Source: Sutcliffiella horikoshii (GTDB lineage Bacteria > Bacillota > Bacilli > Bacillales > Bacillaceae_I). From it: DNA of 64,000 nucleotides. The stretch covers positions 1,364,001 through 1,428,000 of the forward strand of contig NZ_CP020880.1 of assembly GCF_002157855.1 (NCBI RefSeq). Reading direction: 5' to 3'. The notes beneath the pieces were generated by a model. That model was not told the origin of the DNA, did no database searches, and saw nothing but the letters and a program-made list of their open reading frames with translations. Both the position numbers and the translations under genes were made by a program. Within the stretch, counting starts at the first letter, position 1; each line of letters begins with the position of its first letter. Positions 21,756 to 29,091 of the stretch are shown piece by piece.

Positions 21756-21807
21756 TTGTCAAAAGCGGCTGGCATCTGATATATTTATAACTGTGAAACG
21801 ATTCACA
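21756..21807 (+). promoter_or_regulatory. roxS promoter with Rex operator
   Basis: TTGTCA (21756-21761), 18-bp spacer and extended -10 TGATATATT (TATATT at 21780-21785). These are followed by TGTGAAACGATTCACA at 21792-21807, a perfect match to the core Rex palindrome TGTGAAnnnnTTCACA. It overlaps the expected transcription start, so Rex should repress when NADH is low. Confidence 0.85.
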
Positions 21808-21912
21808 AACAAACATATACCCCTTTGTTTGACCGTGAAAAATTTCTCCCATCCCCTTTGTTGTCTTTAATGACAATAGATTAGCCCTGGTCCCGTTGAC
21901 CGGGGCTTTTCC
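21792..21912 (+). ncRNA. roxS: RoxS/RsaE small regulatory RNA
   Basis: A trans-acting sRNA that adjusts central metabolism and redox balance. A 5' hairpin is built on CAAACA...TGTTTG with ACCCCTTT in its loop. It is followed by the single-stranded C-rich words TCTCCC and ATCCCCTTTG, which are the anti-Shine-Dalgarno seeds of RsaE. The 3' end is the terminator AGCCCTGGTC-ccgtt-GACCGGGGCT plus TTTT. The seed region agrees nearly base for base with S. aureus RsaE as I remember it, and the location next to yjbH matches B. subtilis roxS. Confidence 0.93.
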
Positions 21913-21981: not shown

Positions 21982-22111
21982 CGGGCGATAATTAGACCAT
22001 TATGGGCGACTTTTTGAAAATACGGGCGAAAATCTGCCTCTTTCGGGCGATAATTTGATTTTACGGGCGATTTTTAATAGCTTTCGGGCGAAAATAAAAA
22101 AAACGGGCGAT
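21982..22111 (+). repeat. CGGGCGA array A, 7 boxes at ~20.5 bp
   Basis: GGGCGA occurs at 21983, 22004, 22024, 22045, 22065, 22086 and 22105 (steps 21, 20, 21, 20, 21, 19). Six of the seven are preceded by C. The 13-15 bases between boxes are AT-rich and differ from unit to unit. The array lies between roxS and the yjbH terminator. Confidence 0.9.
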
Positions 22112-22175: not shown

Positions 22176-22216
22176 AAACCGGAGAGGCAAACATCATGAG
22201 TTTGCCTCTCCGGTTT
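22176..22216 (-). terminator. Terminator after yjbH
   Basis: A 16-bp perfect stem AAACCGGAGAGGCAAA / TTTGCCTCTCCGGTTT, with the T tail on the minus strand. Confidence 0.92.
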
Positions 22217-22232
22217 ATTTATTCTTACTAAG

Positions 22233-23105
22233 TTAATTCGCAATATATCTCCAAAACGTCCCGTGCTTCACTGGAACTTTTTCGACACGTTGGGCCAGCT
22301 GAAGCTTTTTTAACTCATGTTCGACTTCTACAATCGGCAGGTTATAGACTACCGATATTTCCTTTGTTGCTACAAAAGAAAACTGTGATAAGAAGTCCTC
22401 TAAAGGAGGCAGCATCTTAGGAAATGGCTGTTCTCCGAGCATATCTTGTAAGATGTGCACATACACCTCATAAGAATGATAGCCAGACACTTTAATGCCT
22501 TCTTCTTCAATATTTTCGTTAAAGAATACAAGCGTGGGGATCTCAGATACGTCCATTTCACTTGTGATTTTGAAATCACAATTTAATGCCTTGGAAGCAC
22601 AATCTCCGCTCATATCATTCTTGAATTCTTCCATATCGAGTCCGACTGACTCCGCACATTCCATTAACACAGGGAGTTCGGAGATATTCTGTTTCTCGAG
22701 GAACAGTACCTCTTGTAACTTCCGCAAGTACTTGATTCCTGCCTTACGTCCTTGAAGCTCGGCAGCCTTAATTGCAATGGATGCAACATATGGTGATTCA
22801 ATCGGATTCTCAAGCCACAAGGACCCATCACAGGACATGCCAGAACGGGTTGCCGTGCGTTCCCAAACTTGGGCCATCGAAGCAGCATAATGTTTTTTGG
22901 CCAGATTAAGGGATGTTAATTGGCCTGTGACAATATGCTTGATGGTAAAATACTGACCGTACTGCACGTATAACTTCTTTAGCATCGGCTCCAATGCCCA
23001 GCACTCTGGACAGAGAGGATCGATGAAGAAGTAAATCTCTATTGGTTTATTGGTAGTATGCTGAATGTTTTTTAAATAAAATAATTTCTTATCATTACAG
23101 GTCAC
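22233..23105 (-). CDS. spxH: ClpXP adaptor SpxH (YjbH)
   Basis: A 290-aa thioredoxin-like (DsbA-family) adaptor that presents Spx to ClpXP. The redox-like motif [12 protein letters not shown] sits at about residue 33. The [21 protein letters not shown] and SEIPTLVFF segments are family landmarks. It overlaps the globin gene by 11 bases, so translation is probably coupled. Its target gene spx is in the same window at 14053. Confidence 0.93.
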
Positions 23106-28070: not shown

Positions 28071-28129
28071 CGGGGGCTGGCTCGATCGGTGACGGCGCGA
28101 GTGGGTTCGATGTGGTAGAAAATGGGAAA

Positions 28130-28237
28130 CGCCCGTAATTTCTGATTTTCGCCCGTAAATCTCAATTATCGCCCGTTTTTCCCAAAAGTCGCCCGATTAC
28201 TCGTGAAAATCGCCCGTAAATTCTAATTATCGCCCGA
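28130..28237 (-). repeat. CGGGCG array B, 6 boxes at 20 bp
   Basis: The complement GCCCG starts at 28131, 28151, 28171, 28191, 28212 and 28232 (steps 20, 20, 20, 21, 20). Read on the minus strand the boxes are CGGGCG followed mostly by A/T, as in array A, including the shared ATAATT continuation. It lies between the convergent yjbO and prpE; the rest of this 309-base gap shows nothing else. Confidence 0.9.
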
Positions 28238-28350: not shown

Positions 28351-29091
28351 TCAGTCCCACAACTCTCGAAACTTCTCCTTCACAAACGGCATCCCGGATT
28401 CCACAGAAACCGTCTCCATTTCAGGGTAGCGCAGTGCGGAAAGCTTACCGCCAAACACCGCACCTGTATCAATATTAGCAGTGTTATGGACGATTCTCAC
28501 TTCGCGAACTGGCGTGTGACCATAGACAACCCAGGCTTCTCCGTCATACTCTTGTGCCCAATCGCGGCGAACAGGCATGCCGTTCTCATGGAACTCACCG
28601 GTAATATCGCCGTAAAGGACAAAAGTTTTCACCTTTTTACCCTCTTTACCTATGTAATCTTTCTTAATGCCGGCATGCGCTACAACTAGTTTGCCATTAT
28701 CCAATACCTGATAAAGGGGTGAATCCTCGTATAGCTTAATAAACATCTGGCGAAAACGCCCCTGTTCTGCACCAGAAAGCGTCTCGAATTCCGCCACTGT
28801 CGTTTCCAATCCATGAGTATGCTGAACTTTGTTTCCTAAAAGAAAGCGGTACAGCTTGTTGCAGTGGTTGCCTGGTACATAATAGCCGAGTCCCGCTTCG
28901 ACCAACGCATACACAATCTTCACCACGCCAACCGAGTCAGGTCCTCGGTCAGTAAGATCGCCAACAAAAGCAAGTTTTCGTCCCTCAGGATGTTTATAAA
29001 GACCATTGACCTCCGAATAGCCTAGGTCATTTAGAAGGGATTTAAATTCCTCAATACACCCATGAATATCACCGATGACATCTATTTTCAT
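28351..29091 (-). CDS. prpE: Bis(5'-nucleosyl)-tetraphosphatase PrpE
   Basis: A 246-aa calcineurin-like metallophosphoesterase that hydrolyses Ap4A-type dinucleotides; B. subtilis PrpE also influences spore germination. Metal motifs in order are [21 protein letters not shown] and VAHAGI, plus VVYGHTP. It is the yjbP position. It lies opposite yjbO and just beyond repeat array B. Confidence 0.92.

Follow-up and report, generated by a model that had tools for sequence, protein, structure and literature searches.

The window, i.e., the whole stretch of 64,000 nucleotides that was analyzed, carries two short arrays of a heptameric word, one on each strand. Array A lies between the gene for the RoxS/RsaE small RNA, which ends 71 bp before the array on the same strand, and a convergent yjbH-like open reading frame (ORF), while array B is found next to a phosphatase-like ORF. 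The two ORFs serve as anchors for loci A and B in other genomes, and the features are as follows:

21793..21911, + strand: RoxS/RsaE small RNA, neighbor of array A (Rfam RF01820, 91.2 bits)
21982..22110, + strand: array A, seven boxes (from word positions and 300 dinucleotide shuffles of the window)
21982..21988, + strand: array A box 1, CGGGCGA
22003..22009, + strand: array A box 2, TGGGCGA, one mismatch
22023..22029, + strand: array A box 3, CGGGCGA
22044..22050, + strand: array A box 4, CGGGCGA
22064..22070, + strand: array A box 5, CGGGCGA
22085..22091, + strand: array A box 6, CGGGCGA
22104..22110, + strand: array A box 7, CGGGCGA
22176..22216, - strand (scored on + too): terminator-like stem separating array A from the yjbH-like ORF (stem scan)
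22233..23105, - strand: yjbH-like ORF (putative name), 290 aa, convergent neighbor and anchor for locus A
28129..28236, - strand: array B, six boxes, all exact except the sixth (CGGGCGT, one mismatch), at steps of 20, 21, 20, 20, and 20 bp (word search)
28351..29091, - strand: phosphatase-like ORF (putative name), 246 aa, neighbor and anchor for locus B

On the + strand, GGGCGA starts at 21983, 22004, 22024, 22045, 22065, 22086, and 22105, with steps of 21, 20, 21, 20, 21, and 19 bp (sum 122). As a word, it shows barely any enrichment in the window (15.6 matches expected and 22 observed, the latter count being reached in 4 of 100 shuffles), but the longest run at steps of 19–21 bp in 300 dinucleotide shuffles was one in 299 cases and two in a single case, as compared to the seven and five observed on the two strands, and it is hence the arrangement of the word, rather than its frequency, that is not due to chance. 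The sevenfold occurrence at 19–21 bp steps, which had been claimed in a preliminary description of this DNA, is borne out by the exact positions and the shuffles, whereas the seven CGGGCGA boxes described there are six, as the second box reads TGGGCGA. Its placement of the array between roxS and the yjbH terminator (yjbH being the putative name given there) agrees with the RF01820 match and the terminator-like stem at 22176–22216; a second such stem, at 21883–21907 (+), flanks the array on the other side. At array B, the terminator scan returned one weak stem only, which overlaps the array edge.

Arrays in the Genome of Origin

The genome that contains the window (G000; 4.3 Mb) harbors 12 arrays, including A and B. 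There are 61 nearest same-strand pairs of GGGCGA at steps of 11–41 bp, namely 55 at 19–21 bp, five at 40–41 bp with one decayed box in between, and one at 25 bp, and together they make up the 12 arrays plus the isolated 25-bp pair, as opposed to four pairs for the reversed control word. The genome-wide enrichment of the spacing, which the preliminary description had named as a check, was therefore found. With up to two mismatches accepted per box (three-mismatch sites being excluded), seven boxes are counted in ten of the 12 arrays and six in the other two, exact copies account for 71 of the 82 boxes, and the mean step is 20.31 bp, or 10.16 bp per helical turn. The constant part of the arrays is 7 bp long and is followed by spacers of 12–14 bp, which are 38–49% alike and have a common end pattern: across 69 units, unit position 11 is T in 46/46 20-bp units, and the base preceding the next box is A in 43/46 20-bp units and T in 22/23 21-bp units. 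The earlier statement that nothing but the word and its spacing is preserved is thus correct in that the spacers diverge, but overlooks the constraint at position 11 and at the base before the box. Within an array, unit identity is 0.377 at lag 1, 0.475 at lag 2, and 0.469 at lag 3, so that adjacent units are the least alike, in line with the earlier argument that tandem duplication would have kept the spacers; the argument does not extend to the relative G008, where a two-unit repeat is present.

According to mechanical ORF calls, four arrays (A, B, L180, and L185) lie in convergent gaps, and one (L178) lies in a divergent gap whose flanking genes encode, by Pfam, an ABC-type ATPase and a Rex-like protein, and where it may have a local regulatory effect between divergent promoters. 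Another six arrays are found in co-directional gaps, antisense to the genes at L181, L182, L183, L184, and L186 and sense at L179, while the left side of the L177 gap is ambiguous in these calls. No functional theme was found among the genes next to the 12 arrays (ORF calls; Pfam on ten proteins). Terminator-like stems flank A, L185, and L181 and are absent at L184, and no rule emerged from the promoter and terminator scans. When the 12 arrays were folded as RNA on both strands and compared to arrays rebuilt from random same-length units, no excess of structure was seen (mean z of -0.06 and -0.01), with individual arrays reaching z values as low as -2.0. Heptad repeats of coding sequence were considered as a cause and rejected, because steps of 20 bp break the frame in the genus and no consistent frame exists in G000; four of the ten arrays checked there lack an open frame in each of the six frames, and the remainder have mostly short ones.

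Conservation and Turnover Within the Genus

In ten genomes of the genus, with the same limit of two mismatches per box, at least 70 arrays were counted (those of G004, G009, G012, and G013 among the matches listed), of which one has two boxes, six have three, four have four, eight have five, 17 have six, 33 have seven, and one has eight; the loss of entire units could often account for the shorter arrays. Exact boxes make up 62/62 of those counted in G001, where one extra three-mismatch site was excluded, 45/61 in G008 and, among the matches listed, 26/35 in G009 and 20/27 in G004. No triple of the CGGGCGA type was found in six of the 16 genus genomes. The seven boxes of array A in G000 are matched by seven in G009, while five are present in G007 and likewise in G008, where two units are duplicated within the array; in G004 it is split by inserted DNA, with five boxes on one side and two on the other, and in G001 it is down to one degenerate box. 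Locus B was traced into 16 genus genomes, and array B has seven boxes in G009 and G004 and lacks different units in G000, G008, and G001. Given this loss, shortening, and decay in relatives, none of the arrays is essential on its own.

Several further observations were made at these two loci. The DNA inserted after the fifth box in G004 (L212, L313) resembles a putative insertion sequence. Locus A of G015 (L215) and G013 (L216) holds a different repeat, GATGAAGACCTCT and its reverse complement, in units of roughly 60 bp, and in G002 (L214) and G003 (L217) the locus has GC-richer stretches resembling other dispersed Bacillus repeats. At locus B, a lone box is present in G015 (CGGGCGA, L377) and G002 (TGGGCGA, L379), which could be what is left of a collapsed array or else an ancestral state with one box.

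Arrays of G013, G002, and G015 map by flank comparison to L182, L183, L180, and L185 of G000, and in these deep ortholog pairs site and orientation are kept in 5/5 cases, with long flank alignments mostly at 74–80% identity and one flank at 90%. At L182, seven boxes of G013 align to seven of G000, and G010 also has seven there, with another word. Between different loci, three of the 78 array pairs (L184–L186, A–L181, and L182–L290) share the order of their units (z 3.0–3.35), and whole arrays have therefore probably been copied between sites. Over all 78 pairs, p<0.05 for unit order is reached in 8% with a mean z of 0.21, and units of the same index are slightly more alike than others (0.491 vs. 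0.468, p=0.0125). A simple founder model, in which one seven-box master gave rise to all arrays, was rejected, as the overall signal is weak even though the three pairs are clear.

In each of the eight comparisons with G000, boxes show fewer changes per site than spacers do, with p values from 0.016 down to about 1e-8. Between G000 and G001, at all 12 loci (A being lost in G001), 13/455 box, 85/713 spacer (11.9%), and 987/6999 flank positions differ (box vs. spacer p 8.5e-9). For the other genomes, the box and spacer differences are 13/350 and 72/561 in G007 (8 loci), 65/417 and 190/663 in G008 (11 loci), 19/189 and 81/308 in G009 (4 loci), 12/140 and 70/228 in G004 (3 loci), 25/126 and 65/201 in G012 (3 loci), 14/138 and 67/227 in G013 (3 loci), and 2/42 and 35/77 in G002 (1 locus), with box vs. 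spacer p values for these seven genomes of 0.016 to 1.2e-6 or smaller. The arrays in these comparisons were defined in G000 and most loci were located via exact boxes, which favors box conservation in most of them. In a comparison of G001 with G007, 10/287 box, 80/461 spacer, and 341/1908 nearby intergenic flank positions differ, i.e., spacers change like flanks. The least biased test uses loci A and B located by their flanking genes alone, and it is only suggestive of box constraint: 20/231 box positions (8.7%) and 49/351 spacer positions (14.0%) differ (p=0.066), with units matched by hand and G008 and G012 each used in a single pair; of the six pairs, G004–G012 is reversed (boxes 5/35 vs. 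spacers 3/52). Box constraint would accordingly appear to vary by lineage, from strong to relaxed. The comparison of boxes and spacers between strains that the preliminary description had proposed hence came out in favor of slower boxes in 8/8 genomes, while remaining suggestive at the flank-anchored loci. Selection for same-face placement, as had been claimed, is still the best reading, but it is qualified by this latter test and by the decay of arrays.

Word Variants in the Genus and in Other Bacillales

A different word is used in G010, which belongs to the same genus and contains no GGGCGA pairs. This genome has eleven CGNGCGA triples, each with A at position 3, and seven array regions of six to eight boxes at uniform 20-bp steps, in which position 3 is A in 47/47 boxes and 29/47 are exactly CGAGCGA, whereas position 3 is G in 369/370 boxes of nine other genus genomes (for some, among the matches listed). 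Two of the seven G010 arrays occupy array sites of G000 (B and L182) with orientation kept, an overlap with a chance probability of about 7e-4 if 2500 gaps and 15 occupied sites are assumed. That one base has changed alike in dispersed arrays whose spacers differ is what an altered trans-acting reader would be expected to select for, and the genome-wide switch thus points to such a putative reader; alternatively, copies of a new master array could have replaced the old arrays completely.

Among 397 genomes of the order, YGGGCGA triples are found in 18 genomes and in eight of 135 genera (reversed word: five genomes), 11 of the 18 belonging to the genus group of the window, so that conservation of the GGGCGA word throughout the Bacillales is ruled out. 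CGNGCGA triples occur in 43/397 genomes and 21/135 genera, as compared to 14 genomes for the reversal, i.e., about threefold by genome. Among the matches listed, the letter at position 3 tends to be one per genome (A in G317 and mainly C in G131), with G298 having T in most arrays and A in some. From G186, 11 arrays of 5–13 boxes were fetched, mostly with 21-bp steps. Phased GC-rich arrays at 20–21 bp are therefore common in the order, with a lineage-specific word. In GC-rich species with 21-bp steps throughout, open frames are present in the arrays, and coding is possible for each.

Some of these genomes have peculiarities of their own. The G186 arrays (L278–L288) are polar, with CGGGCGA or CGAGCGA boxes first and CGCGCGN at the 3′ end. 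Triples of the reversed control AGCGNGC at 20–21 bp number 121 in G053, 49 in G121, 30 in G149, and 39 in G375, which indicates that other words also form phased arrays. Tandem arrays of AGCGGG (L258–L277; G025, G106, G051, G244, and G348) mostly have 21-bp steps, with 18-bp steps in G033, and their units are near-identical inside a locus and different between loci.

Candidate Functions and Related Systems

We favor, with moderate confidence, the reading that the arrays are binding strips for a candidate sequence-specific protein that would act at the level of DNA, probably in an architectural role. The putative protein would read CGGGCGA in each array, copies on boxes 20–21 bp apart would lie on almost the same helical face and could touch, and about seven boxes over roughly 130 bp could thereby form one cooperative complex, which may shape or partition the chromosome as an insulator or in a topological or nucleoid role. 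As the arrays are sited in intergenic gaps, chromosome architecture is more likely than regulation of single genes. The uniform word, the 20–21 bp steps, the usual count of up to seven, and the slower boxes in most comparisons argue for binding, as do the persistence of orthologous sites and orientations and the change of the word throughout one congener; against it stand the flank-anchored test (p=0.066), the loss and decay of arrays, the lack of a theme among neighboring genes, and the arrays of reversed words in other genera. More tentatively, and possible rather than probable, the arrays could belong to a chromosome-wide protein–DNA system of Bacillales, in which a protein on heptad arrays and its word would co-evolve, with one dialect per genome (CGGGCGA, CGAGCGA, CGTGCGA, or CGCGCGA) and drifting spacers. 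If the binding reading is right, the arrays represent an unrecognized layer of chromosome organization in sporulating bacteria and an example of a regulatory-type array that persists while all but contacts and spacing turns over; since nothing beyond word and phase is preserved, the binding sites could be located directly in any genome sequence. The word switch that separates G010 from the CGGGCGA species would then be a natural experiment for finding the protein, whose DNA-contacting residues should differ between the two.

The arrays could instead be non-autonomous dispersed repeats (REP- or MITE-like), the boxes of which serve a mobilizing or recombining protein in trans, so that arrays are copied to new gaps without gain for the host and the switch in G010 reflects turnover together with the mobilizer. 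We consider this rather unlikely: the three pairs with shared unit order, the slight excess of same-index similarity, the highly variable copy number between genomes, and the arrays that shrink or decay in several species, down to the lone boxes at locus B of G015 and G002, would all be accommodated, but unit order reaches p<0.05 in just 8% of the 78 pairs, sites are stable across the genus, boxes persist after the spacers have diverged, and no clean empty site, target duplication, or candidate mobilizer was found. It is a good deal less probable that the arrays are a neutral satellite, whose units were multiplied by slippage and whose box conservation is only apparent since arrays are recognized by their boxes. 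Gains and losses of units, the tandem duplication at locus A of G008, the p value of the flank-anchored test, and the 21-bp arrays with near-identical units in many Bacillales are in keeping with slippage, but recent duplication would give the opposite of the low similarity between adjacent units, and the boxes are nearly uniform while spacers have diverged, with 0/62 counted boxes changed in G001 and its spacers at 11.9% from G000.

Use of the arrays by a known DNA-wrapping protein, either DNA gyrase or a ring of the RemA or Lrp type, which would wrap about 130 bp so that the boxes mark the side facing outward or inward, is similarly improbable. The motif reported for Escherichia coli gyrase covers about 130 bp, like the arrays, and has phased G/C, but its period is 10.75 bp and its center is a cleavage region of 36 bp (PMC6379681), whereas the arrays have the shorter period of 10.16 bp per turn, are uninterrupted at the center, and repeat a strict word in a single orientation; gyrase would also not require the word to be switched between congeners. 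RemA of Bacillus is described as a ring-forming protein that binds direct repeats, has LytTR-like dimers contacting two consecutive major grooves, and may wrap DNA, and its target regions are likewise repetitive, but their repeats are AT-rich and modestly conserved, with 7 bp protected and 3 bp in between (PMC8481266), in contrast to the strict GC-rich word every 20–21 bp of the arrays. An element that acts as RNA, i.e., a protein-binding repeat or a sponge transcript continuing from RoxS or a neighboring mRNA, is the least probable of the readings and hardly to be expected. Array A does follow RoxS on the same strand, and repeated words containing GG could bind an RNA protein, but A is flanked by terminator-like stems, excess RNA structure was not seen, and the six co-directional gaps hold arrays in mixed orientation (five antisense, one sense), hence no constant strand is transcribed.

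The preliminary description knew of no described element of this form, and none was found in the open-access literature searched, although several related systems resemble the arrays in part. Iteron arrays of theta-replicating plasmids consist of about 5–7 direct repeats of about 17–22 bp with two-turn phasing, to which one protein binds cooperatively. The phased direct repeats are common to both (here 55 of 61 pairs at 19–21 bp and five at 40–41 bp), but iterons conserve the whole repeat unit, whereas the arrays keep 7 of 20–21 bp with spacers 38–49% alike and are scattered over the chromosome in 12 copies; no replication initiator gene was found in the ORF calls around the 12 arrays and by Pfam on ten of those proteins. 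Plasmid partition sites such as parC and tubC also have direct repeats on one face that are bound by a small DNA-binding protein; the arrays differ in being at many dispersed chromosomal sites, and no partition operon lies beside those looked at. REP/BIME and BOX repeats are short, dispersed, and intergenic, as are the arrays, and they are vertically kept, lost, or decaying, but they are palindromes or hairpins conserved throughout, whereas in the arrays mainly word and step are kept and folding excess is absent. TAACTGA heptamers form intergenic direct repeats at many loci in Beggiatoaceae and Cyanobacteria, with 2–6 copies per set in one genome, and most are reported to lie just upstream of start codons and are proposed to act on translation (PMC4679880); the arrays are intergenic heptamers as well, and they differ from this description by spacers of 13–14 bp, helical phase, and the absence of a start-codon position.

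Three further classes of repeats do not fit. A CRISPR array requires repeats of >20 bp and unique spacers of similar length, compared with a constant part of 7 bp and spacers of 12–14 bp; a repeat of the REP/BIME type requires a stem-loop palindrome, at odds with the mean folding z values of -0.06 and -0.01; and a satellite or VNTR requires near-identical whole units, whereas neighboring units are the least alike here. Tandem Repeats Finder reports only 2.5 units on array A, with a score of 60. Elsewhere in the window, at 1033–1472, two adjoining tandem arrays of 52-bp units, the unit sequences of which differ between the two, occupy the gap between an ABC-transporter-like ORF, which ends at 956, and another ORF that begins at 1622.
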